Shown piece after piece: positions 3,095 through 62,002 of a DNA stretch of 64,000 nucleotides. Numbering within the stretch: position 1 is the stretch's first letter; the number at the start of each line of letters is the position of its first letter. The notes under the pieces were generated by a model that was not told the origin of the DNA, made no database searches, and saw only the letters and a program-made list of their open reading frames with translations. A program made the translations under genes and the position numbers. The stretch comes from Methanofollis formosanus (GTDB lineage Archaea; Halobacteriota; Methanomicrobia; Methanomicrobiales; Methanofollaceae): NCBI RefSeq assembly GCF_019633745.1, contig NZ_CP037968.1, forward strand, positions 2,672,789 to 2,736,788. The letters run 5' to 3'.

Positions 3095-3164
3095 CTCATT
3101 TGGCTTTGTAAAAACCTCACCATTTCTTGTTTCAAGTATGATTCAGCCACTGTCCTCCAGGTTC

Positions 3165-3219
3165 GCGCCGGGGGCGCTGCCCCCGGACCCCCGGGATGGC
3201 GATAGGGGTGGGGAGGCTG
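3165..3219 (+). repeat. Dispersed GC-rich hairpin repeat, copy 1
   Basis: The core GCCGGGGGCGCTGCCCCCGG folds into a strong hairpin and is followed by ACCCCCGGGATGGCGAT and AGGGGTGGGGAGGC. A closely similar sequence occurs on the minus strand at 61857-61909, with shared order and spacing of these blocks. It looks like a REP-type dispersed element. It lies between the AT-rich membrane gene and the toxin-antitoxin pair; apart from it, the stretch 3095-3456 holds nothing I can support as a gene. Confidence 0.65.
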
Positions 3220-3456
3220 AAAAAAAGATCCTGAAAGACGTGCCACCTCATCGCCCATCTTTGTGCGGAAGAACCTCGGGGCACCCAGCGTACTTGATGG
3301 GCATCTCTTCAGAGCGCCTGCACGGCGGATCGATCCCGGCACCGATGGGAGATCTCGAGATGTCGCCGGCATTCTCCTCTCGATTTCGTACGTGATGGGT
3401 ACTTGATCGGAAGGACTCCCCGGTCACCCGGAGATCATGAAAGGACCATCACCTTC

Positions 3457-9298: not shown

Positions 9299-9559
9299 AT
9301 GACAAAACGATCTCAGAAGAGACGAGACGGCAGCCCCCAGACTGAAGACTGCTCCAACACAGGTTCACGGAGGTCTGCCATCTCTCAGTCGTCGCGGGAA
9401 GATGTAAAATCTGTCGGTCCGGTGCCGCTCTACCTGGTGCCGCCGGTGGTGACGGCAGCGGTGAACCGTGTCGGCGGGGCGCTCTCCGAACTCTGCGTGC
9501 GCCGGAGCGGGATGCATCTCTATACGGTGAGGATGACGGTGCTGGAGGAGGAGGCATGA
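9299..9559 (+). CDS. Small protein, first gene of the PrimPol operon
   Basis: An 86-residue protein with a basic, Ser-rich N-terminus (MTKRSQKRRDGS) and a more ordered second half (PLYLVPPVVTAAVNRVGGAL). I recognise no family. The start is well supported by AGGAGG a few bases upstream. The stop overlaps the start of the next gene by 4 bp (ATGA), so it is translationally coupled to it and through it to the primase gene. In plasmids and integrated elements, small basic proteins at this place are often copy-control or DNA-binding proteins; that is inference only. Confidence 0.6.
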   Translation: MTKRSQKRRDGSPQTEDCSNTGSRRSAISQSSREDVKSVGPVPLYLVPPVVTAAVNRVGGALSELCVRRSGMHLYTVRMTVLEEEA

Positions 9560-9891
9560 ACGGCACGCTCTGTCCCGGCCCGGACGGGACGCTCCACCTC
9601 TTCGTGGGCCGCGGGCATTTCCGGATCGCCGCCGACGACACCAGAGCGCTGCTTGCCGGGGGGACGGTGGTGCCGGTGACGATGGATGAGACCGGGACGG
9701 CCGAGGACGGGACGGTGGGTGGCCAGACGCTGATCGTGGGCCATGCGGCGATGAACCACTTCGAACGGTCGGTGAAGATCTTCACGGTCGCCGGGCACTT
9801 CATCGTGCCGCTGGTGAGCGTGCAGCGGGTGGTGCGGGGCGAAGCGGCCTCGGCGCCGCTCTTCCCCCTGGTCCCGGAGGGGTGCCCGTGA
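9556..9891 (+). CDS. Hypothetical protein, second gene of the PrimPol operon
   Basis: A 111-residue protein without recognised domain. It is predicted to be soluble and rich in beta strands (DGTLHLFVGRGHFRIAADD, SVKIFTVAGHFIVPLVSVQR). It is sandwiched by 4-bp overlaps on both sides: ATGA with the small upstream gene and GTGA with the primase-helicase gene. Such tight packing suggests that the three proteins are made together and that this one assists replication of the element. Confidence 0.6.
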   Translation: MNGTLCPGPDGTLHLFVGRGHFRIAADDTRALLAGGTVVPVTMDETGTAEDGTVGGQTLIVGHAAMNHFERSVKIFTVAGHFIVPLVSVQRVVRGEAASAPLFPLVPEGCP

Positions 9892-12629
9892 TCAAAGCGG
9901 CCCTTGCCGCCCTCTTCCCGGCGGGCGGCGTCGTGGAGGTGCGGGCGCTCGCCGACCGCTTCACCCACTCCGGCTACTTCGACGACTTTGCGAAGTTGGC
10001 GAGCGCCGCCGAGGCGCTCGACGCCGACCCCGAGGTGAAGGGGACGTACGTCACGCTCAACGTCGTCGACCCGGCGCTCCTCGCGAGGCGGGCAAACCGC
10101 GTGAAGATGCGGCTCACGCGAAGCGATCCCACCACCGCCGACGCCGACATCCTCAGGCGCCGGTGGTTGCCCATCGACCTCGACCCGGTGCGGCCGAGCG
10201 GGGTGTCGGCGACGGACGCGGAACACGAGGCAGCGATCGAGCGGGCCGAGACGATCGCCCGCTGGCTCGCGGAGCAGGGCTTTCCCGATCCGATCAAAGC
10301 CGACTCAGGCAACGGCGCCCATCTGCTCTATGCGATCGATCTCGCGAACGACGAGGCGGCCGCCGCCCTGGTGAAGGGCGTGCTCGCCACCCTGGACGCG
10401 TTGTTTTCGGACGAGGTGGTGACCGTCGACACCGCGAACTTCAACGCCGCCCGCATCTGGAAACTCTACGGGACGACCTCGCGCAAAGGCGACCACACCG
10501 TCGAACGACCGCACCGTCGTGCGAAGATCCTCGCGGTGCCGGAGCACCCGGAGGTCGTCGACGCCGACCTCCTCGAAACGATCGCCGGCCGCCTCCCGCG
10601 GGAGGCCCCGGCACAACCGAAAGGGAAGAGCGGCATCGACCTCGGCGCATGGCTCCGCGAGCACGGCCTTGGCGTGCGGAACACCCGGCCCTGGCAGGGC
10701 GGAACGCTCTACGCCCTCGAGGACTGCCCGTTCAGCGGGGCGCACCGTGACGGCGCCTTCGCCGTGCAGTTCCCCTCGGGTGCGATCTATGCCGGGTGCC
10801 ACCACGCCTCCTGCGGCGGCGGGACGCAGCGGTGGCCCGAGCTGCGGAGGATGTACGAGAAGCGGCGGAAGGCGTCGGCGCCTCCGCCCATCCCGCCGCC
10901 GCCCGACGAGGCCGACCGCGAGCAGGCGATGGAGATCCTCACCCGCGGCGACCCGCTCGCCTTCATGCTCGACACCTTCTCCCGCGAGCACGTCGGCGAC
11001 CGCATCGTCGCCGAGTGCCTGGTGATGTCCCTCGCCTCGCAGTCGGTGGAGAACACGAACGGGCTGCACGTCTCCGTGTCGGGCAACTCCGGGAAGGGGA
11101 AGAGCCACGCCTGCACCACGATGCTCAAGCAGGTGCCGGCCGCCTACCGCCTCGCCGGGACGGTGAGCAACAAGGCGCTCTACTACCACGACGACCTCCA
11201 CCCGGGCACGGTCTTCCTCTTCGACGACGTCTCCCTCTCCGACGATCTCCAGGAGGTGCTCAAGGCGGCGACGGCAAACTTCAGGGACCACATCGAGCAC
11301 CACACCGTCTCGCCGGACCGCAAACTCCAGATCTGCCGCCTTCCCGAACGCTGCGTCTGGTGGCTTGCCCGCGTCGAAGATCCCGGCGACGACCAGGTGC
11401 TCAACCGGATGCTCACTGTCTGGATCGACGACACCCTCGAACAGGACGAACGGGTGCTCAAATACCGGAAGCGTGCGGAGACGCGGGAGAAGAAGGTCGC
11501 CGCCGAAGACCCGGCCCTCCCGGTCTGCCGGGTGATCTGGGAGGTGCTCAAGGAAGAGCGCGTCCACGTCTCCATCCCGTACGCCGAGCGGGTGCAGTTC
11601 TCGGTGACGGCCAACCGCCGGAACCCCGGCATGCTCTTCGACCTCATCAAGGCCTCCGCGCTCCTCCGCCGGTTCAGGCGCGAGCACTTCGACGGCGGCA
11701 TCCGGGCAAACCGGGAGGACTTCGAGACGGCGGCGCGGATCTACGCGGCGATCAACGGGGAGGCCGGCGGGCAGGAGACGAAGGTGACGAAGAACGAGGC
11801 CGCCGCCCTGGAGACGGTGGCGGCGATGGGGTGGGACGTCTTCACCGTTCGCATGCTCCAGGATGCCCTGGGACTCTCGTACCACCAGACCCGCCGGATA
11901 CTCCAGGGGTATAACAACGGCGGCTCTTCCTACTCGGGGCTGCTGGAGAAGTGCCCGGCGGTCGGGTTCGTGGACACCACCATCTCCGAGGAAATCGACG
12001 GCTCCATGGTCCGCCGGCGGGAGCACCATTATTCCTTCGACCTGGCGGCATATCGCCGGTGGAGCGGAGGTGCGCATGTCTGGCTCGACCGCGACCCCGA
12101 CCCCCCCGACGATAGCACGTTTGCACCTGGTTTGCACCGAAGTTGCACTGAGAACGTGCAAAGCAGGGGGACGGAGGAACGGCCCCGGAGTACTTATTCT
12201 AAAGAGAGAAGAGAGATCTCTCTCTCCTCTAGTACTAGATTGCACCAAAACGAGGACGCACCCACCACCCCTGATCGGTCGGGGTCTCCGGGTGAGGGTG
12301 GGTGCGATCGGCGTTCTGGTGCACATGAGGACAATGATCCCGACAAAACCGTCCCGATCGAGAAACCGGGCCACAAAATCCTCCCGTTCGGTAGCACTTT
12401 CAGAGTGCAACCCGGTGCAATCCAGTGCACACGTGCAAACAAGGTCCTGCCGCTCCCTGGTGTCCTGGACCGCCGGGAGTTCACGCGGGTGAAAACCGAT
12501 CTCGGCCGCTGCGATGTGTGTGGCGAGGGGAAGGCGGTGCACCGCTCGGCCGACAGGCAGGTGGTGCTCTGCGAGGGGTGTTATGCGAGGGTGGTGCAGG
12601 CGTGGAACGCAGGGATGGGGGTGGGATGA
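9888..12629 (+). CDS. Primase-polymerase/helicase replication protein of a mobile element
   Basis: The 913-residue protein appears to be a fused initiator. The N-terminal part has archaeo-eukaryotic primase motifs: LPIDLDP (D97, D99), SGNGAH (H145) and VDTANFN (D181), followed by RIWKLYGT. A central ATPase has Walker A GNSGKGKS (399-406) and Walker B VFLFDD (D446, D447). A helical winged region follows near 660-690. Residues about 740-865 are low complexity and coincide with the iteron-like DNA repeats. The C-terminus has a four-Cys zinc ribbon (C875, C878, C895, C898). The GTG start forms a GTGA overlap with the previous gene and has GGAGG at good spacing. No integrase or att site is recognised nearby, so the element may be a remnant or integrate by other means. 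Confidence 0.8.
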   Translation: MIKAALAALFPAGGVVEVRALADRFTHSGYFDDFAKLASAAEALDADPEVKGTYVTLNVVDPALLARRANRVKMRLTRSDPTTADADILRRRWLPIDLDPVRPSGVSATDAEHEAAIERAETIARWLAEQGFPDPIKADSGNGAHLLYAIDLANDEAAAALVKGVLATLDALFSDEVVTVDTANFNAARIWKLYGTTSRKGDHTVERPHRRAKILAVPEHPEVVDADLLETIAGRLPREAPAQPKGKSGIDLGAWLREHGLGVRNTRPWQGGTLYALEDCPFSGAHRDGAFAVQFPSGAIYAGCHHASCGGGTQRWPELRRMYEKRRKASAPPPIPPPPDEADREQAMEILTRGDPLAFMLDTFSREHVGDRIVAECLVMSLASQSVENTNGLHVSVSGNSGKGKSHACTTMLKQVPAAYRLAGTVSNKALYYHDDLHPGTVFLFDDVSLSDDLQEVLKAATANFRDHIEHHTVSPDRKLQICRLPERCVWWLARVEDPGDDQVLNRMLTVWIDDTLEQDERVLKYRKRAETREKKVAAEDPALPVCRVIWEVLKEERVHVSIPYAERVQFSVTANRRNPGMLFDLIKASALLRRFRREHFDGGIRANREDFETAARIYAAINGEAGGQETKVTKNEAAALETVAAMGWDVFTVRMLQDALGLSYHQTRRILQGYNNGGSSYSGLLEKCPAVGFVDTTISEEIDGSMVRRREHHYSFDLAAYRRWSGGAHVWLDRDPDPPDDSTFAPGLHRSCTENVQSRGTEERPRSTYSKERREISLSSSTRLHQNEDAPTTPDRSGSPGEGGCDRRSGAHEDNDPDKTVPIEKPGHKILPFGSTFRVQPGAIQCTRANKVLPLPGVLDRREFTRVKTDLGRCDVCGEGKAVHRSADRQVVLCEGCYARVVQAWNAGMGVG
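12121..12438 (+). repeat. Iteron-like repeat clusters around a palindrome (candidate replication origin)
   Basis: Inside the 3' part of the PrimPol gene, TTGCAC occurs at 12121, 12132 and 12143, exactly 11 bp apart, with an inverted GTGCAA at 12156 and a further TTGCACC at 12240. The opposite orientation is clustered at 12405, 12415, 12425 (GTGCAC) and 12433. Between the clusters lies a hairpin-forming AGAGAGAAGAGAGA/TCTCTCTCTCCTCT tract flanked by two AGTACT sites (12190-12235). Helically phased repeats in or beside a replication gene are typical of iteron origins. Confidence 0.6.
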
Positions 12630-12645
12630 ATCCGCACGCACCGTT

Positions 12646-14178
12646 CTACCCGGCCGTGAAACCCTGCACATAAAAGATGCCGCCGTCGTGCAGGGCCGCG
12701 TAGTCCTCCCATCCGTCCCGTCCGTCCGCCGGATCGGACCGCGACCTGAAGGTCCGATTGGCCGGCGGCGTGTCGGCTGAAGAGACATAGACGAGCGGCT
12801 CCGTGATCTCGGCTGCGTCGTCCCGTGCCGCAAACCCGAGCGCGATGACGAACTCGTCGCCTTTCTTCAGGGGGACCTGCCGGTCCAGGTCGACGAGATG
12901 GTATCCCTGCTCGGGCACCGAGAGATCTTTGGAGAGAACAAGCCTGTTCGGGTCGGGCCGGTTCCCGGCCTCGTCCCACCCGTCGTAGACGGTGACCGTG
13001 AGGTGTTCGTTCCGGTTCAGGGTCATGAACCCGACCGCCCGCAGAGCCGCGTCCTCCTCCGCGGTGAAACGGGCGCACGCCCACGACTCCCCGCCGTCGG
13101 CCGCGAACCCGTCGGAGAGATAGTCCCAGGCGATCTCGGAGGGTTCGGTCGAGACGTTGGAGAGCGCTCCGGCGTGTGTCTCGTAACGGTTACCGGTGTC
13201 GTACCCCTCGCCGCTCCCGGCGACGAGCGCCACGGCGAAGTCGTTGCCCTTCAGGAAGAGTGCGTCGGCGTAGGATATCCAGAAGTAGCCTTCGTCGCCG
13301 AACGCGGTGCCGTGACTGTTCTTGATCAGCCAGGCTCCGGGCTCGGGCGCTCCCTGAGTCTGTCTCGTGTCGTCCCACCCCGCGATCGTGACGGCGTGGT
13401 TGAGGGACGGCGGCAGGGGGCCGTCGCCGGTTCCGTCGAAGTAGTAGTCGTTCGACGTGCGGTTGAAGATGGACGACTCGTTCTGGCCCGGATAGATCGA
13501 CGGGTCGGCAAAGTGGTAGGAGAGCAGTGCGCCGTGCTGCAGGAGGGCACGTTTGACGGCGGTGCGGTACTCCTCGTCCGCGGCATAGTCGGGGCGGGAG
13601 AAGACGAGCGCCTCGCGGAGCATGTACGAGACCGGGAGGCGCTCGGGCGGCGGTGTCAGGACCTGCCTCTCCTGGATCTCGTCGAGCGGGAACGGGGCGG
13701 AGCGTTCGAGGACCGGGCCCCTGCCGCTGCTGAAGTAGTCGATCGCGTAGCGATGGTCGCCTCCCCAGCCGCGTATTACGGGTTCGCTTTCCGTATAGCC
13801 AAAAGAGAAGGTGCCGTTCGGGGTGAGGTCCGGGTTGAAGGTGTAGACCGGATGGTTGTACCCGTTCCAGTTCGCCATATGCCAGGCCGAGAGGTGCGCG
13901 GCGGGCGATGCCGGATCGGATACGATCTCCTGGTGAAGAAGGCTGCTCTCGAACGCCGCACAGGCGGCGAACGCCCAGCAGGCGCCGACGGTGTTCCCGA
14001 TGTCAGGCCGGCCGTCCGGGAGCGTGCCGCCCTGCGTTTTGACCGGCGTTACGAGACATTTCCCGTCCACGTCGCGCAGGTCGTAGGCCGAAGGCAGCGA
14101 GGCCGGTGCCTGCACGACGGCGACGCCGACAAAGAGAACGGCTCCGACGAGGACGGCGGCGAGGATCCGAATGTCCAT
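12646..14178 (-). CDS. Secreted papain-family (C1) cysteine protease with lectin-like C-terminal domain
   Basis: The first 24 residues form a signal peptide (hydrophobic VLVGAVLFVGVAVV). The C1A peptidase core shows Q49, the catalytic C67 in GACWAFA, H261 in LNHAVTIAGWDD and N287 in IKNSHG, so the triad is complete. The region from about residue 350 to the end is a beta-rich domain, as in methanogen surface proteases with a lectin-like domain. No propeptide of normal size separates signal and core. The enzyme probably cleaves proteins at the cell surface. It is downstream of, and codirectional with, the ATP-grasp gene, at 41 bp distance, and its end faces the end of the PrimPol gene. Confidence 0.88.
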   Translation of the reverse strand: MDIRILAAVLVGAVLFVGVAVVQAPASLPSAYDLRDVDGKCLVTPVKTQGGTLPDGRPDIGNTVGACWAFAACAAFESSLLHQEIVSDPASPAAHLSAWHMANWNGYNHPVYTFNPDLTPNGTFSFGYTESEPVIRGWGGDHRYAIDYFSSGRGPVLERSAPFPLDEIQERQVLTPPPERLPVSYMLREALVFSRPDYAADEEYRTAVKRALLQHGALLSYHFADPSIYPGQNESSIFNRTSNDYYFDGTGDGPLPPSLNHAVTIAGWDDTRQTQGAPEPGAWLIKNSHGTAFGDEGYFWISYADALFLKGNDFAVALVAGSGEGYDTGNRYETHAGALSNVSTEPSEIAWDYLSDGFAADGGESWACARFTAEEDAALRAVGFMTLNRNEHLTVTVYDGWDEAGNRPDPNRLVLSKDLSVPEQGYHLVDLDRQVPLKKGDEFVIALGFAARDDAAEITEPLVYVSSADTPPANRTFRSRSDPADGRDGWEDYAALHDGGIFYVQGFTAG

Positions 14179-33463: not shown

Positions 33464-33593
33464 TGATGGGTACCGGTCTCTTTTCCACCCTCACTCGCGC
33501 CAATTGGTTGGGAGTGCTCGCATCACGAGGGTGCGGGGCAACTCCCCGTGAAACATAGAAAGAAGTTTCTTTCTGAGGGAGATAAGTTAGAGA
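33464..33593 (+). promoter_or_regulatory. CRISPR leader
   Basis: The 130 bp between cas2 and the first repeat. Because the degenerate repeat lies at the far end, this side is the leader and the place of new insertions. It contains a perfect inverted repeat AGAAAGAA-GT-TTCTTTCT (33557-33574) twenty bases before the first repeat, and GGGGCAACTCCCC, a further small hairpin resembling part of the CRISPR repeat. The pre-crRNA promoter should be here. Confidence 0.7.
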
Positions 33594-36500
33594 GAGTTCC
33601 CCACACGCGTGGGGATGAACCGATCGTGGTGCCCCACTGGTGCAATGACTTTGAGAGTTCCCCACACGCGTGGGGATGAACCGATCTCGAGCGGGCATCT
33701 ATGTGACTGAGGGATGAGTTCCCCACACGCGTGGGGATGAACCGGCGCCGCCCAGAGATACCCCGAACTGCACGATGAGTTCCCCACACGCGTGGGGATG
33801 AACCGCTCGTCGGCGAGGCTGCGGACGAGATCGAGCCGAGTTCCCCACACGCGTGGGGATGAACCGACATTGAGGATGGCGTTCATGATCGTCGCTACGA
33901 GTTCCCCACACGCGTGGGGATGAACCGGTCAATAGCGATCACGTAGGGCTGTTCGGGGAGAGTTCCCCACACGCGTGGGGATGAACCGCCTAACACCATC
34001 ACCGTATCATCTGAGAAGGTGAGTTCCCCACACGCGTGGGGATGAACCGTAAAACCTGTTCCACCACCAGATTTATGAACAGAGTTCCCCACACGCGTGG
34101 GGATGAACCGAAATGGTGTCAAAAACAATCAACCGCATCATAGAGTTCCCCACACGCGTGGGGATGAACCGAAACAGAAATTATGGAGGAGAAAAAGGAA
34201 TCGGAGTTCCCCACACGCGTGGGGATGAACCGTTTAAATAATGCTTCTTCAAATAACGGATGTAGAGTTCCCCACACGCGTGGGGATGAACCGGCGTTGA
34301 TCACCTCTCGGAGTAGTTGTTCATTGAGTTCCCCACACGCGTGGGGATGAACCGCAACTCATCATACTGGTCAGGACGGCGATTGAGAGTTCCCCACACG
34401 CGTGGGGATGAACCGCCAGCACCGCATCCGCGAGGTCCCGGTCCTCGGAGTTCCCCACACGCGTGGGGATGAACCGAAAAAACCATGTTAGGACAAAACG
34501 ACGAACCTGAGTTCCCCACACGCGTGGGGATGAACCGGCAAACAAGTTTGTTCAATTAATAAAGATAGTGAGTTCCCCACACGCGTGGGGATGAACCGCC
34601 TTCTTCCCAAATATTCTATTTTCGATGAAAGAGTTCCCCACACGCGTGGGGATGAACCGGCCATGGGCGCGCTCTCGGTGAAGGCGGCGGGGAGTTCCCC
34701 ACACGCGTGGGGATGAACCGCCGTATCGGATACATGACCCCAGCACCTACGGGAGTTCCCCACACGCGTGGGGATGAACCGATGATCGGGGCCTGCCTGA
34801 ATTCGCGTGATCGGAGTTCCCCACACGCGTGGGGATGAACCGAGGCGTGCATATGTGCAACCTCTTGCGCGGCAGAGTTCCCCACACGCGTGGGGATGAA
34901 CCGGATACGGACGAGCGGGGGATTATGCGAGGAAAGAGTTCCCCACACGCGTGGGGATGAACCGTATTCGGGGATGGAATTGTGCTGTTAGTGTTAGAGT
35001 TCCCCACACGCGTGGGGATGAACCGAGTGGTAGGCCATAATCGTGCAGTCCTATGCAGAGTTCCCCACACGCGTGGGGATGAACCGGTATACCGTCTCCT
35101 TCTGTTCCTCTCCCTCTAGAGTTCCCCACACGCGTGGGGATGAACCGTCGACGGCACGAACATCCGAGTCTCGTACAGCGAGTTCCCCACACGCGTGGGG
35201 ATGAACCGAAAAATTGTATCGATGCGATGATTGTAACGACGAGTTCCCCACACGCGTGGGGATGAACCGTATGTAGATAATATTAGAAGAAAACTGTAAT
35301 TGAGTTCCCCACACGCGTGGGGATGAACCGAATTGGTCCAAAGCAACTCCACTTGTTCTTTGGAGTTCCCCACACGCGTGGGGATGAACCTATTGAGGTC
35401 AGACCAAAATGAATCTCCACGACGAGTTCCCCACACGCGTGGGGATGAACCGTCTCTATTTGGTATCCTTTTCTTCGAGAAAAGGAGTTCCCCACACGCG
35501 TGGGGATGAACCGATCGTGGAGGGCGGCGACTGCGTCCCCTGCATGAGTTCCCCACACGCGTGGGGATGAACCGCCTGCAAGAGAGACCAGGGAGAGAGA
35601 TCTGAGGAGTTCCCCACACGCGTGGGGATGAACCGGCGAGCATCGAGAAGTTGAGATAGATCTCGCCGAGTTCCCCACACGCGTGGGGATGAACCGATAC
35701 CCGTCATGCTCGTAGTGCCAGTCCACATGAGTTCCCCACACGCGTGGGGATGAACCGACCCCCCGCGCCACGCCCCCTCGGCCGAGGTCGAGTTCCCCAC
35801 ACGCGTGGGGATGAACCTGATACGAGGTCCTCCCCCCACCGCATCGCCATGAGTTCCCCACACGCGTGGGGATGAACCGCCGTCCTTTTCGAGTTGGGTG
35901 ATTTGCCGGATGAGTTCCCCACACGCGTGGGGATGAACCGGCGCCATCCAGGCGCTCTATGCCCCGGCCCCTGAGTTCCCCACACGCGTGGGGATGAACC
36001 GATCTGCCTTGCATCCCGCGTAGATCTCGGAAAGAGTTCCCCACACGCGTGGGGATGAACCGAACTGCTCATCCGCCGCCCGTGCGAAACAGAAGAGTTC
36101 CCCACACGCGTGGGGATGAACCGCGAAACGCCACACCATCGGACTCTGGTATCAGGAGTTCCCCACACGCGTGGGGATGAACCGGCAACGGCCTGTTCGG
36201 TGCCGATAGGGGTGGGGAGTTCCCCACACGCGTGGGGATGAACCGATGTTCGACCGCCCTCAGGAGGTCACCCACGAGAGTTCCCCACACGCGTGGGGAT
36301 GAACCGCGGGCGTCTCATGTCCCCCTGGAAGAAGAACAGAGTTCCCCACACGCGTGGGGATGAACCGCCGGCAGCATCGCGGGTTCGGCCCTATGGGAGG
36401 AGTTCCCCACACGCGTGGGGATGAACCGACGTGGGGATAAAACCGGGTGCGGTCCGGAAGGAGTTCCCCACACGCGTGGGGATGAACCGAGTTTCGCGTC

Positions 36501-39500
36501 GATCTCGACCCATGCTGCACTGAGTTCCCCACACGCGTGGGGATGAACCGATCGCCGAGTTTCAGGAGAGTGCCGGGACTGGGAGTTCCCCACACGCGTG
36601 GGGATGAACCGGCCCGTCTGGCCGGGCAAAACTCGACGCACCTGAGTTCCCCACACGCGTGGGGATGAACCGAGCCGGGCCGCCAGGGTTGGATCGTCTG
36701 GTGCGAGTTCCCCACACGCGTGGGGATGAACCGCACAGGGGGGACTGAGGCGTGGGATACGGTGAGAGTTCCCCACACGCGTGGGGATGAACCGAAAGGG
36801 GGGCTTGTCGTGGCTCTGCTACCTGTGAGTTCCCCACACGCGTGGGGATGAACCGAGGAATGAGGTTATTTGGGAGGGGCAACCCAAGAGTTCCCCACAC
36901 GCGTGGGGATGAACCGGATAGCAACAACCTGTCTGAGAACCAGTTTCTGAGTTCCCCACACGCGTGGGGATGAACCGTGATCGGATGAACAACCAGGAAA
37001 AACACACGCGAGTTCCCCACACGCGTGGGGATGAACCGAGGTTGCGGGGCATCGCTCACCTCAGGCCGAAGAGTTCCCCACACGCGTGGGGATGAACCGA
37101 GGGCGAGATAACCTGGGAAGTCGAGGAGAAGGAGTTCCCCACACGCGTGGGGATGAACCGGTCCCGTTCGTCGATTCCGGAGGAGAGACACCGAGTTCCC
37201 CACACGCGTGGGGATGAACCGACGCACTCGGACTCACCGCCGACGAGGTCGCCGAGTTCCCCACACGCGTGGGGATGAACCGACTCTCCCGAGAGCCTGT
37301 AGAGCCTGCACATAGAGTTCCCCACACGCGTGGGGATGAACCGGCACTGGGAGGCCCCGTTCGACCGCGGCCGCGGAGTTCCCCACACGCGTGGGGATGA
37401 ACCGCGCCACGAGGCCCAGAACGCCGGAAGCATCGAGAGTTCCCCACACGCGTGGGGATGAACCGCGCGGACGGTCCAGAAGAGTTCAGCGAACCCAGAG
37501 TTCCCCACACGCGTGGGGATGAACCGCGCGGACGGTCCAGAAGAGTTCAGCGAACCCAGAGTTCCCCACACGCGTGGGGATGAACCGGCGGCGGTGCAAA
37601 ACCTCGACGAGTGGCGCACGAGTTCCCCACACGCGTGGGGATGAACCGGCACGCGACCGGGAGATCAGGGCGGCGGAGCAGAGTTCCCCACACGCGTGGG
37701 GATGAACCGTCATGGGGAGATTTTAGCGGGGGCGGTGGAAAGAGTTCCCCACACGCGTGGGGATGAACCGGTTCAATAAAAAAAGGCATGTGAGGTCACC
37801 CCGAGTTCCCCACACGCGTGGGGATGAACCGAGCGCCCCCGAGGGCGCCACGTTCTGAGCTTCGAGTTCCCCACACGCGTGGGGATGAACCGAGGCGCTG
37901 CCACAGTGTCGGCGCCGCGTCGGGGAGTTCCCCACACGCGTGGGGATGAACCGATCCCCCTCGATGATCTCATAGTAGGTGCTCAGAGTTCCCCACACGC
38001 GTGGGGATGAACCGGCGACGACCCTCGACGGCAAGCCCGACGCGGCGAGTTCCCCACACGCGTGGGGATGAACCGGCGACTGCTGCTTGCTCTTCAGGCG
38101 TCGGATGGAGTTCCCCACACGCGTGGGGATGAACCGAGGATGACGGTGACCGGACCAAAGTAGTGGACGAGTTCCCCACACGCGTGGGGATGAACCTACG
38201 CCTCGAACTCGACGATGCTGAAGAACTGCGAGTTCCCCACACGCGTGGGGATGAACCGTGTTCCATACCATAGCGCACCACCCTATTTCGGAGTTCCCCA
38301 CACGCGTGGGGATGAACCGGCGCTTCTGAAGGTCTTCGTTTCCCATAGCAGGAGTTCCCCACACGCGTGGGGATGAACCGAGATGGCAGAGTCTCTCGGC
38401 TCGAAACTCCTCGAGTTCCCCACACGCGTGGGGATGAACCGTCCTGTTTGCCGACGGGCGGCGGGTCGAGGGTGAGTTCCCCACACGCGTGGGGATGAAC
38501 CGGGGAAGCACAGATTGTCGAAAAGAAATGATTTGAGTTCCCCACACGCGTGGGGATGAACCGTCCACCGTGGCCTGGCCGTCTGCCTGGCGGTCGAGTT
38601 CCCCACACGCGTGGGGATGAACCGGCGAGGGCGATCTCCTCTGCCTCCTCAGGGGAGAGTTCCCCACACGCGTGGGGATGAACCGCGGCTCGATCTCGTA
38701 CGTGGCAGATCCCTACTGAGTTCCCCACACGCGTGGGGATGAACCGGTAGTCCTCCGTCGTCGCGCTGCACCGGGCCGGAGTTCCCCACACGCGTGGGGA
38801 TGAACCGAACTGGCTCGCGATCATCTCCCCGAACCCCTCGAGTTCCCCACACGCGTGGGGATGAACCGATCCGGGGCGCGGCCGGCACCTATTTCCGGCG
38901 GAGTTCCCCACACGCGTGGGGATGAACCGTACGCCTGCGTCTGCCATCTCAGATCACCCCCGAGTTCCCCACACGCGTGGGGATGAACCGTGGCCGGGCC
39001 GCTCGCACGACCGGATCTCCAGGAGTTCCCCACACGCGTGGGGATGAACCGTCTGCGGAGGGATGGGGGGTTGGCGGGAGGGGGAGTTCCCCACACGCGT
39101 GGGGATGAACCGCCCTCCGAGCGTGATATACTCTTTATTTTTAGGAGTTCCCCACACGCGTGGGGATGAACCGACGCAGCCGCCGCAATCCAGGTGCTCG
39201 ACGCGGAGTTCCCCACACGCGTGGGGATGAACCGAACAGAGAAGGTGAAGAAACGTGACAGAAACAGAGTTCCCCACACGCGTGGGGATGAACCGCGGTC
39301 GAAGCGGCGGATCGTCTCCCTCGACGCGAGTTCCCCACACGCGTGGGGATGAACCGCTCCTGGAGGAACGCCGGACCCCACTCGGCCCGAGTTCCCCACA
39401 CGCGTGGGGATGAACCGTATTCGGCCTCTGAGAGGCAGTATCCCACATTGAGTTCCCCACACGCGTGGGGATGAACCGGCCTGCCTCAGTGAGGACGCCG

Positions 39501-42041
39501 GCGAGGTCGCGAGTTCCCCACACGCGTGGGGATGAACCGAGAGATCGGTATTTCTGGGGCGAGACGACGATGAGTTCCCCACACGCGTGGGGATGAACCG
39601 GCGCTGAGCGGCAGTCTGACTCTCCCGGATCTGAGTTCCCCACACGCGTGGGGATGAACCGACTGCTCACTTCACGCTCTTTTTCCAGACCTAGAGTTCC
39701 CCACACGCGTGGGGATGAACCGAGGCATAAAATGTCAGAAACAGGTTTGAACGGGAGTTCCCCACACGCGTGGGGATGAACCGATGTTCGTTCCCGGCAC
39801 CGGAATCCCGACCGTGAGTTCCCCACACGCGTGGGGATGAACCGCCTCGGGCGGGCTCAGTCGTCGGAGGAGGGCTGAGTTCCCCACACGCGTGGGGATG
39901 AACCGGTGCTCTGTCTGGATTGTTTCCGCGAGTGGTGGAGTTCCCCACACGCGTGGGGATGAACCGACGTGAGCGGGGCCGGATACACTGGCAAAAAAGA
40001 GTTCCCCACACGCGTGGGGATGAACCGCGGTGCTCTGGGCGAAGGGATACCGGCAGTGGGAGTTCCCCACACGCGTGGGGATGAACCGAGAGACGCGGTA
40101 CTCGACTTCATGGCCGGCGCGAGTTCCCCACACGCGTGGGGATGAACCGATACGGCTGTATCTTATCCTTCGTGTCAACGGGAGTTCCCCACACGCGTGG
40201 GGATGAACCGATGATGCACCCGGGCGACACCTCGCTCGGGGCGAGTTCCCCACACGCGTGGGGATGAACCGATCCTCGCCTTTTTCTATTGCACCGGCGA
40301 CAGGAGTTCCCCACACGCGTGGGGATGAACCGGGTCCTCATCGAAGGCGAGATCGTTCCCGACCTGAGTTCCCCACACGCGTGGGGATGAACCGGCGTCG
40401 CACCTCCTGAGGATCTCAAGGTCCCCGAGTTCCCCACACGCGTGGGGATGAACCGCACGCCGCCCTGATGCAGGACCACCCGACGCTGAGTTCCCCACAC
40501 GCGTGGGGATGAACCGACCATCGTCACCCTCCAGGACGGCGTCAGAAAGAGTTCCCCACACGCGTGGGGATGAACCGACGGGGGCCGGGCCCTATACCCT
40601 CGAGTCCGAGAGTTCCCCACACGCGTGGGGATGAACCGGAAACGTCGTACACGGGTTGCGACCCCATAGGGAGTTCCCCACACGCGTGGGGATGAACCGA
40701 TAGTGGTCTATCGCATTCTCTGGAATCGAATGAGTTCCCCACACGCGTGGGGATGAACCGGAATAAGTTCGACACCAGCACCAAACACAGCAGAGTTCCC
40801 CACACGCGTGGGGATGAACCGAGGACCGCACCACCACAAAAAAACCTCGATGTGAGTTCCCCACACGCGTGGGGATGAACCGTAGTATAGGAGGTAGCGA
40901 ATGAGCCACATAACGAGTTCCCCACACGCGTGGGGATGAACCGATCCTGGATTTGCACTGTCTCCAGCGAATCGCGAGTTCCCCACACGCGTGGGGATGA
41001 ACCGATCCTCTACCACGAGGTTCGGGAACGGTTCGGGAGTTCCCCACACGCGTGGGGATGAACCGCGGTGCCGGTGCTGTGATGGAGAACGATGTCCGAG
41101 TTCCCCACACGCGTGGGGATGAACCGGCGGCCACTGCACACTGCCGTTCTGCCCGCAAGAGTTCCCCACACGCGTGGGGATGAACCGAACGCGTCGAACT
41201 GGTTTGGCAGGATGACGACGAGTTCCCCACACGCGTGGGGATGAACCTGAGGAGCGCAACCTGCGCCTCTGAAGGATACAGAGTTCCCCACACGCGTGGG
41301 GATGAACCGATAGCGACTGAGAAATCAGACCTCAGCCACCGGAGTTCCCCACACGCGTGGGGATGAACCGTATAGAATAATATATGGAACATATAGTGAG
41401 TGGAGTTCCCCACACGCGTGGGGATGAACCGATCCTTTCTTATCGTGGTCCGGTCGCCCTGGTGAGTTCCCCACACGCGTGGGGATGAACCATTGTGACT
41501 GGCAGACGATGTAAGCCATCGTCCGAGTTCCCCACACGCGTGGGGATGAACCATTGTGACTGGCAGACGATGTAAGCCATCGTCCGAGTTCCCCACACGC
41601 GTGGGGATGAACCGCCTTCGACGGATATCAGATTGCCCCGGTATCTGAGTTCCCCACACGCGTGGGGATGAACCGACAGTTGGGACACTGCCGCGCCTCG
41701 ACCCTGGGAGTTCCCCACACGCGTGGGGATGAACCTTGAGGATCGGGTTGCCGTCCGCGTCGGTCATCGAGTTCCCCACACGCGTGGGGATGAACCGGTC
41801 TGCGGATCTGCAACGAGGAGCAGATGGCAGAGTTCCCCACACGCGTGGGGATGAACCGCTGGCAGAGTGTGCAGACGGGGGAGTAGACCAGAGTTCCCCA
41901 CACGCGTGGGGATGAACCGGTCGCATGGGCTGCCGACAAGCATGGAGCCGAGAGTTCCCCACACGCGTGGGGATGAACCGGCCCTGCGGGATCACGACGT
42001 CGCCATAACTCTGAGTTCCCCACACGCGTGGGAACGAATCG
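33594..42041 (+). CRISPR. Type I-E CRISPR array, 139 repeats and 138 spacers
   Basis: The 29-bp repeat has the core TTCCCCACACGCGTGGGGA, with GAG before it and TGAACC plus a variable last base after it. The period is 61 bp throughout (32-nt spacers) except one 33-nt spacer at 40333-40365. Repeats are otherwise nearly invariant. The last base is G in most repeats, T at 35391, 35818, 38197, 41248 and 41736, and A at 41492 and 41553. The final repeat (42013-42041) is mutated in its 3' third. Spacers 37466/37527 and 41492/41553 regions are adjacent duplicates. Orientation follows the E. coli I-E repeat, with transcription from the cas2 side. Confidence 0.98.
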
Positions 42042-42900: not shown

Positions 42901-44058
42901 TCACTTTTGATCTTCGGCGACTCCGGCATGCCGGCCTGTCGTCCTGCAGAGCACCTCCTCCACCCCCTCCCTCACCCCGATCTCCCTCCTCCTCCCCCGG
43001 CCCCGGCGCACCATCTGCACATCCACCAGCCGCAGCCGCTCCAGCTTCTTCAGCCGCTCGTGAAACACCGTGTAGCTCATCTCCGCCCCCTCGCACACCC
43101 GGCCGTACACCTGCCCGGCGCCGGCCGCCCCGTCCTCCGCCCGGCCCTCGTCGAGGGCCGCCGCGAGCACCGCCCGCTCCGATGCCGACAGCCCTTCGAT
43201 CGTCACGGCGAGGTGGCGGTTCTTCGAGACCACAAAGGCGGCGAGAACGTCGCCGGCGGTCACCGTGCGCCGCCCGGCCTCCTCGGCCGCCCTCGCCGCC
43301 CGCCCGATGAGGTCCAGGCCGACGCGGAGATCGGCGGTGGCGACCGCCCGCTCGACGACGAGGTCGAGGACCGCGGGCGGCATCACCCCCGGATACAGCC
43401 CGGCCCGCACCCGGTCGCCGAGGATCGCCCGCACCTCCCCGGCGGAGTACGGCGGGAAGAAGACCTCCGCCGCCTGGAAGACCGACCGCGTGCCCGGGTC
43501 GAGGGCACGGGCGAGGTCGGCCTCGGGCGCAGAGAGGGTGAGCACCACCCCGACCCGGACCGCCGGCCAGACCTCGTGCATCCTGAGCAGCGGGGCGAGG
43601 ACGGCGTCGAGCCCGCCGTCGGCAAGGAGCCAGTGGGCGTCGTCCAGGCAGACGACGACCGCCGCCTCCCGCGCCATGAGGACATGGGCGACCTCGGACA
43701 TCAAGCGCTTGATCGAGACCCCGGAGGTCGGCGGGGCATGGCCGACGAGCACCCGGAAGATCTCGGCGACGACCGCAAACAGACTCTTCTCGACCTGGCA
43801 GGAGACGAGCACCGGCACCACCTGCGTCGTCGTCTCCTCCACCTCGGCGAAGAGCAGCCTGATCGCCGTCGTCTTGCCGGTGCCAGGCACCCCGCGGAGC
43901 ACGGCGTGCTGCGGGCGGTAGCCCGCGAAGGCCGGGCGGAGGGCGAAGGCGAGGGCCTCGAGCTGCGTGTCGCGGTGGTTGAAGACCTCAGGGAGATGAG
44001 CGGACTCAAAAACCGCAGGGTCGCGGAAGAGCGTCTGGTCGGCGGTGAGGGGTTTCAT
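42901..44058 (-). CDS. cdc6: Orc1/Cdc6-type replication initiator
   Basis: A 385-residue AAA+ ATPase. FNHRDTQLEALAFAL is the family N-terminal motif, Walker A is GVPGTGKT (56-63), Walker B is VVVCLDDAH (D139, D140). The C-terminal third is a winged-helix domain (SASERAVLAAALDEG, SYTVFHERLKKLERLRLVD). Archaeal Orc1/Cdc6 proteins bind origin boxes and load the MCM helicase. Genomes of this group have several copies and their origins often lie beside the gene; I could not identify origin boxes with confidence. The start MKPLTADQTLF fits known proteins better than the longer frame. Confidence 0.88.
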   Translation of the reverse strand: MKPLTADQTLFRDPAVFESAHLPEVFNHRDTQLEALAFALRPAFAGYRPQHAVLRGVPGTGKTTAIRLLFAEVEETTTQVVPVLVSCQVEKSLFAVVAEIFRVLVGHAPPTSGVSIKRLMSEVAHVLMAREAAVVVCLDDAHWLLADGGLDAVLAPLLRMHEVWPAVRVGVVLTLSAPEADLARALDPGTRSVFQAAEVFFPPYSAGEVRAILGDRVRAGLYPGVMPPAVLDLVVERAVATADLRVGLDLIGRAARAAEEAGRRTVTAGDVLAAFVVSKNRHLAVTIEGLSASERAVLAAALDEGRAEDGAAGAGQVYGRVCEGAEMSYTVFHERLKKLERLRLVDVQMVRRGRGRRREIGVREGVEEVLCRTTGRHAGVAEDQK

Positions 44059-44187
44059 GCGGAGGGGTGGCCGCCAGAGGATATAGAGGTGGGCCGTGCG
44101 TGCGGGGTGAAAGTGAAGGGCCGGGGGACCGCGGCAGAAAATCACCCGGGAAAATATCCCGGATCAAAATAAAAAGGCATTATATTG

Positions 44188-47590: not shown

Positions 47591-47640
47591 GAAGGTGTGC
47601 CGGTGACATCCCGGGAGTCCTGGCAGGAGTGAAAAGAGCA

Positions 47641-48144
47641 ATGGCAGACTTTGTCCTGTCCACCACGAACAAGACGTCGGTGCGGAAACTCACCGCACCG
47701 ATCGCCGATGCTGCCGCGTTCAACGGCATCATCGAGGACATCCTGACGAACAACCCCTGGGGATGCACCCCCTGGGAGGGCGCCGGCGTCTCCCACGACG
47801 GCGTCGAGAAGGCCGCGGAGAACTACACGGCCCGCATCGTCTACGAGGACGAGTTCGGCGACGTCCTGGGCACCGCCTCCGCCCGTGCGCCGGACCTTGC
47901 CGGGTTCAACGCCGCGAAGACCGAACTCCTCGGCAACGAAGCGCTCGAGACCGCGGTCGGCGGGACGGCCGTCGCCGACTCGGGCCGCGAGACCTACGCG
48001 TGCCGCCTGCGGTGCCACGACGCCGGCGGCGAGGTTTACTTCGTCGCCTTCACCCGCACCTCGGTGCGGATCTCGTCCTACGAGAACGACGCGATCAGCG
48101 ACGCGATCGAGACCTGGGCCGACGGGGTTGCGGCCCTCGCGTGA
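47641..48144 (+). CDS. Hypothetical soluble protein
   Basis: A 167-residue protein from MADFVLSTTNK. It is hydrophilic, without signal or membrane segments, and appears alpha/beta (TARIVYEDEFGDVLGTASAR, EVYFVAFTRTSVRISSYEN). I recognise no family; similar proteins may exist in related methanogens. A GTG four codons upstream is an alternative start, in which case CCGGGAG could be the ribosome-binding site. The codon pattern is the usual GC-rich one, so I think the gene is real. It may be regulated through the palindrome before it. Confidence 0.6.
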   Translation: MADFVLSTTNKTSVRKLTAPIADAAAFNGIIEDILTNNPWGCTPWEGAGVSHDGVEKAAENYTARIVYEDEFGDVLGTASARAPDLAGFNAAKTELLGNEALETAVGGTAVADSGRETYACRLRCHDAGGEVYFVAFTRTSVRISSYENDAISDAIETWADGVAALA

Positions 48145-61664: not shown

Positions 61665-61797
61665 TGTGGCTGGCGGTCGATCACCTTACGTTGAGCATAT
61701 CCCAAAACTCTCTTGGGCTGTCCATCTCCTCGAACCGAAGCGCTTCCTTCCAGAAATTCTGAACCCTATCCTCCACCGGGGGATTGGCTGCCCCCCG

Positions 61798-61909
61798 GAT
61801 CCCCCGCCGATGAAGATTGGCGGGGGATCGCATCCCGCCTTCACGATCATCGCTTTGCCTTCCCGACCCAATCGCAATCCCGGGGGTCCGGGGGCAGAGC
61901 CCCCGGCGC
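61798..61909 (-). repeat. Hairpin and dispersed repeat, copy 2
   Basis: GATCCCCCGCC (61798-61808) and GGCGGGGGATC (61819-61829) form a perfect 11-bp inverted repeat with a 10-nt loop. Just beside it, minus-strand 61857-61909 matches the element at 3165-3219 (GCGCCGGGGGCTCTGCCCCC, ACCCCCGGGATTGCGATTGGG). The element sits exactly where the second Ig-like gene copy has lost its 5' part. The rest of 61665-62000 is noncoding. Confidence 0.65.
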
Positions 61910-62002
61910 AGTGGGGTGGGAAGGCGTGAATGCATGGATGCGCAACGAAAAGAGGAGGATATTTTCTCCACATCCATCGCTCTCTTCTGAGAGGGGGAGG
62001 AC

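Follow-up and report, generated by a model that had tools for sequence, protein, structure and literature searches.

The family arCOG07809, exemplified by Mpal_2033, combines a primase, a helicase, an HTH and a Zn finger, and has been described as belonging to putative small integrated elements in methanogens, with integrases in some members (Makarova et al. 2014; PMC4158269). Its helicase was named as superfamily I and related to fusellovirus proteins; the accessible text of that paper names no origin or iterons. Initiators that join a PrimPol, a helicase and a wHTH are common on archaeal plasmids and viruses, and that of plasmid pRN1 is the best studied. pRN1 has a small operon that encodes such an initiator, with the origin beside it; the helicase is of the SF3 type, and a stem-loop of 100 nt follows the gene (PMC4234260). 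The authors of the pRN1 study, in the accessible portion of their report, found no iterons and termed the bound motif not yet identified (PMC4234260).

Here we analyze a module in a 64,000-nucleotide stretch of the Methanofollis formosanus genome (the window, to whose positions coordinates refer unless a genome or locus is named). As far as the published description of Mpal_2033 allows a match, the AEP, helicase/ATPase, HTH and Zn finger follow one another in the same order here, and the helicase part is likewise related to fusellovirus proteins. The module differs from arCOG07809, as described in the accessible text, in that its ATPase folds like an MCM AAA+ domain and an array of iterons lies in the linker. 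It is similar to pRN1 in having a small operon with a PrimPol-helicase-wHTH initiator. The best solved folds for its ATPase are MCM AAA+, although an SF3 relationship like that of pRN1 may still apply, and its iterons are intragenic. We consider it probable, at roughly 0.7 and on computational grounds, that the PrimPol/MCM-like/wHTH protein is an initiator that binds a candidate origin inside its own gene and that it belongs to a family of integrated replicons.

The module has the following genes and leader tract.

9299-9559, + strand: orf1, ATG start, 86 aa, read directly as an open reading frame
9556-9891, + strand: orf2, ATG start, 111 aa, read directly as an open reading frame
9888-12629, + strand: gene of the PrimPol protein, GTG start, 913 aa, read directly as an open reading frame
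9329-9379, + strand: conserved 5' leader in orf1, GGCAGCC..TGCNCCAACAC..CTGCC, encoding GSPxxxxCSNTGSxxSA

Direct reading of the frames agrees with the initial annotation of three overlapping genes that end in a 913-residue PrimPol protein; each overlap is 4 bp (orf1/orf2, ATGA at 9556-9559; orf2/PrimPol, GTGA at 9888-9891). None of the three proteins scores above the cut-off of any Pfam or NCBIfam family, orf1 has no Pfam, PHROG or NCBIfam family, and Rfam gives nothing above threshold in the module. orf2 accompanies each of the genome's three intact PrimPol copies, and the leader tract of orf1 is fused in frame to PrimPol in short-type copies. By Pfam, the seven neighboring proteins are a P-type ATPase, a NucS-like protein, an ion channel, a protein with no family, a C1 peptidase, an ATP-grasp protein and another with no family. 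The statement that no recombinase or capsid gene lies nearby therefore holds for these seven by Pfam; an integrase is also absent among them, and in the accessible text on arCOG07809 only some members have one. Sister genome G005 lacks, at the orthologous place, the C1-peptidase gene (12646-14178) that here separates the module from the ATP-grasp gene.

The module is one copy of a multicopy and already known family of integrated replicons of Methanomicrobiales. A search for it elsewhere recovered nine matches to the PrimPol protein in its own genome, the own copy among them. Of the other eight, two are intact (78% and 76%), five are partial and one, at 70%, contains a stop. Counting this genome, 61 were searched; 37 of them have a match and 24 have none. 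Genome contigs were scanned and yielded 249 loci that encode the protein; the best 80 of these 249, which were kept, come from Methanofollis, Methanoculleus, Methanogenium, Methanolinea, Methanoregula, Methanospirillum, other Methanomicrobiales and some "Euryarchaeota" bins. Viral contigs (51 loci), plasmids (one record) and phages (two records) have relatives of approximately the first 320-410 residues only, and the plasmid and phage collections contain no full-length relative. Homology between copies spans the promoter region to approximately the PrimPol stop codon, an extent that may merely reflect decay of the flanks.

Chromosomal place varies too. The corresponding site in G005, flanked by the same upstream gene and by the ATP-grasp gene, holds a decayed copy, which dates the insertion to before the divergence of the two genomes. 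The upstream gene is matched in nine other genomes of the genus and, in the eight that were inspected there, the element is beside it only in G005. The genus does not conserve the element at this site: instead of the same genes at the same place in all relatives, one of eight inspected genomes has it there, and in decayed form. That the module is a domesticated primase, as the initial annotation had considered, here taken as a host enzyme at a fixed locus, is in keeping with the position of the G005 copy, but that copy is decayed, 24 of 61 genomes lack a match, and copy number and place vary, which makes this origin exceedingly improbable. Its other suggestion, an uncharacterised integrated plasmid class, fares better. 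Varied places, several copies per genome and decayed copies all favor an integrated class; "uncharacterised" is only partly right because the family is in print, as arCOG07809, under "putative small integrated elements" (PMC4158269, accessible text).

The large protein is divided as follows.

9888-10607, + strand: AEP (PrimPol) domain, approximately residues 1-240, with invariant residues; family assignment as in the accessible text of PMC4158269
10905-11777, + strand: AAA+ domain with an MCM-like fold, approximately residues 340-630, from structure comparison
11790-12086, + strand: winged HTH, the proposed iteron reader, residues 635-733, from an AlphaFold2 model and covariation
11916-11918, + strand: codon of residue 677 (Asn), which directly follows the recognition helix, in the wing, in the AlphaFold2 model
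12459-12629, + strand: C-terminal zinc ribbon; copies lose homology at approximately 12620

Residues D97, D99, H145, D181 and R189, which we take to be the AEP motifs, are invariant among 31 aligned proteins, as are the P-loop and Walker B residues G402-K405 and D446/D447; if that labeling of the AEP residues holds, both sets of motifs are intact, as initially reported. The zinc-ribbon cysteines C875, C878, C895 and C898 are invariant among 43 proteins. Pfam found no AEP family in 43 members, and the AEP assignment is based on motifs and on the earlier description of the family; the region is related to AEP-only regions on viral contigs. Compared with solved structures, the ATPase part is best matched by MCM AAA+ folds (VIA Z 20.3-22.0 among 50 rows listed), with MCM filling the PDB rows among the matches listed. 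The protein alignment is strong to approximately residue 735 and weak from there to the zinc ribbon. Residues 737-857, the linker, are disordered in the AlphaFold2 model, and residue 677 sits in the wing hairpin that follows the recognition helix.

The DNA that encodes the disordered linker (12096-12458), between the winged HTH and the zinc ribbon, contains two features.

12115-12446, no strand assigned: candidate intragenic origin-like DNA element, from its iterons and stand-alone copies
12203-12230, no strand assigned: imperfect palindrome AGAGAGAAGAGAGA/TCTCTCTCTCCTCT in the element, from sequence reading and shuffles

TTGCAC occurs four times in the linker (12121, 12132, 12143 and 12240) and GTGCAA four times (12156, 12405, 12415 and 12433), such that the iterons fall on both strands and in all three codon frames. 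The best 8-mer is present in nine copies versus at most seven in 30 shuffles. Related genes have iterons of their own at the same place in the linker, and the best 8-mer exceeds every shuffle in 37 of 44 loci (30 shuffles) and 52 of 71 loci (20 shuffles). From the 80 loci of the second set, five were left out, four with a cut linker (L230, L264, L273 and L276) and one that lacks the HTH (L290), and removal of four duplicates left 115 of 119 linkers. The linker thus holds a cluster of repeated sites, as in iteron-type origins. The palindrome is present in linkers of many Methanofollis copies and beats 10 shuffles in 57 of 119 linkers; that of the own copy is hardly above shuffles (9 vs. 8). The initiators lambda O and phage P4 alpha also bind iterons, and those of lambda lie inside the O gene, a likeness in arrangement between unrelated proteins, as neither is a PrimPol-MCM fusion. 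Searches of the open-licence PMC literature turned up no publication that describes iterons in this gene or an origin within it. The family of the protein is known, as is its "putative" status as a small integrated element (arCOG07809; PMC4158269, accessible text); within the literature searched, the intragenic iteron origin candidate and the residue-base rule described below are new.

Iterons vary between copies and include TTTGCACC, TTTCAGCA or TTGCAGCA, TTTGCAAC, TGACAGCA and others. We defined a linker as readable if it has at least three TTNCAXC sites, where X is the variable base, and twice as many as the next; by this definition 62 of 115 linkers are readable and 53, including those of divergent clades, are not. 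Counted over the 30 first-set loci that are readable, the motif has 183 occurrences in 440-nt linkers versus 26 in gene bodies of approximately 2.2 kb, a comparison in which loci were chosen for having at least three linker sites. Per locus, there are 3-9 motifs in the linker, 0-5 in the gene body and 0-1 in the 900 nt upstream of PrimPol. Iterons could instead be operator or copy-control sites through which the protein regulates its own gene, with the origin elsewhere, and the covariation data below, which show recognition alone and not function, accommodate this. Against it, the sites are at the 3' end of the gene, 2.2 kb from the promoter, and the motif is nearly absent upstream of PrimPol in these 30 loci; we view this role as unlikely. 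Recognition by host initiators as ORB sites was considered and rejected: the genome has five orc1/cdc6-like genes, and TTGCACC is in none of their inspected flanks.

The amino acid at residue 677 correlates with base X. Among readable linkers, Asn is paired with C in 16 of 16, Ser with G in 32 of 32 and Ala with A in 8 of 8; the six others are Arg-C (twice), Thr-G, Thr-T, Cys-G and Gly-A. Residue 677 and the Asn and Ser rules were picked after inspection of the first set, and loci new in the second set follow them (Asn-C, 5 of 5; Ser-G, 16 of 16). Mutual information at residue 677 is 1.350 bits, equal to the label entropy, and ranks first of 735 columns (next, 1.057; median, 0.27). A second trait also covaries, with at least three TGACAGC iterons in exactly six of 115 loci, those with helix tract QKTR. 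Some loci deviate. L114 and L116 have Ser-677 yet significant iterons without G and contradict the rule, and L266 shows the same combination, but with iterons that are not above shuffles. Iterons of the divergent loci L261, L287, L295 and L297 are of another form, L281 (Asn) is mixed with five C-type and five G-type sites, and L258 (Thr) was scored G but has TTTGCAAC as its best 8-mer.

Shared ancestry was considered using 61 related loci, whose effective number is 23.3 at 80% identity. With a tree built from residues 1-640, we count 12 changes of the iteron label and 13 of residue 677; independent Asn/Ser pairs are concordant in 5 of 5 (p 0.06) and, with all rows, in 5.9 of 7 with none opposed (p 0.03). 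On the C-terminal tree these numbers fall to 7 and 8, and concordant pairs number 3 of 3 or 3.9 of 5, neither significant. Weaker pair support on that tree indicates that the HTH travels in part with the linker, as a single cassette. If the adjacent HTH and linker were inherited or exchanged jointly, residue and base could match by hitch-hiking without recognition, and the fewer independent switches on the C-terminal tree are what this would predict. Neighboring HTH and linker-side columns, however, score far below residue 677, and L084 and L085, from one genome, have near-identical helices, different wings and different iterons. We hold hitch-hiking without recognition to be very unlikely.

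We favor the reading in which the large protein is the initiator of an integrated replicon. The winged HTH would bind the 7-8 bp iterons in the linker-coding part of its own gene, the MCM-like AAA+ ring would open the iteron DNA, perhaps with help of the palindrome, and the PrimPol domain would then prime, making one gene initiator and origin together. With a PrimPol, an MCM-like ATPase and an iteron reader in one chain, initiation at the linker would be their simplest use. We infer physical binding and origin activity from computed features, which are the iterons, their place, their spread over all frames, their covariation with residue 677 and the domain make-up. Wing residue 677 is predicted to read a single iteron base (Asn-C, Ser-G and Ala-A) and, because of this, copies with different wings may be able to use separate origins within one cell. 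In six of seven inspected Methanofollis genomes with at least two copies, there is both an Asn and a Ser copy, which would fit separate compatibility groups; the seventh, G006, has three Ser copies. Natural variation over 115 linkers predicts a motif, a binding domain and a single specificity residue, and origin recognition and compatibility are therefore testable by one-residue swaps.

Copies of the linker also occur outside PrimPol genes. A DNA search of 12 genomes of the genus found stand-alone copies of C-type and G-type, approximately 330-355 bp in size, with a sharp left edge near window position 12115, inverted iterons at both ends, and stops when translated. The own genome has one C-type copy (690903-691129) and G-type copies at six places. 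At four places, two of them orthologous, a G-type copy is followed by a C-type copy in a single orientation. In four genomes of a second genus that lack PrimPol, no stand-alone copy extends beyond 45-51 bp, and Rfam has no match in six stand-alone loci. Two copies in the own genome, at different loci, are 92% identical over 503 bp. Another own copy is truncated to the candidate origin and zinc ribbon (1290209), and full PrimPol copies are found 4-6 kb from the same flank in both G003 and G005; decay therefore explains at least this copy.

The linker element could also be a recombination or transposition end, with stand-alone copies as miniature elements mobilized in trans, while full copies would integrate through it. 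The common left edge with inverted terminal iterons and the 92% identical pair speak for this role. On the other hand, no target duplication or clean empty site was found for stand-alone copies (L309 served as the empty-site query), the module is without a recombinase and the truncated copy fits decay, so we hold this role to be unlikely. Under the initiator reading, we tentatively suggest a possible extension: the element would be a single-gene replicon whose initiator gene is the origin DNA, a wing residue-to-base code would keep relatives compatible, and origin-only chromosomal copies would serve either as satellites that are replicated in trans or as decoys titrating related elements on arrival. 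The scattered copies pose the question of whether chromosomes keep element origins as passengers or as protection.

Other observations concern the surroundings of these copies. Orthologous stand-alone copies (L147/L150, L151/L152, L157/L160, L306/L321 and L310/L317) have one flank in common and diverge immediately to the left of the element, a pattern that insertion of other DNA at that point would give. Dispersed intergenic repeats (window 3121-3270 and 61741-61960; L309 516-763; L313 1403-1528), matched dozens of times in each of G003 and G005, are often beside stand-alone copies. Some copies have a second zinc-ribbon tract 1.4-3.9 kb downstream, which is coding in a single real case (L079); we read these tracts as relics and did not retain them as part of the module. 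A stretch of 39-40 bp at window 21960-21998 matches (90%) the 3' terminus of PrimPol copy L010 and is possibly the remnant of another copy. In L095, L097, L085, L092 and L094, an extra small overlapping ORF with a MIPLDPLQTPAVVLGM-like start directly follows the PrimPol stop; it perhaps encodes a membrane protein and is not kept in the own copy. The window also has a CRISPR array (33593-41951; 138 repeats of GAGTTCCCCACACGCGTGGGGATGAACCG) adjoining an orc1/cdc6-like gene (42904-44145). Across nine arrays, none of 461 spacers matched 44 element regions and 80 related loci with at least 80% of the spacer identical. Lastly, a protein of 167-171 aa with no Pfam family is encoded in three near-identical copies located near orc1-like or PrimPol-derived loci (window 47629-48144; L009 3759-4262; L013 11707-12210).
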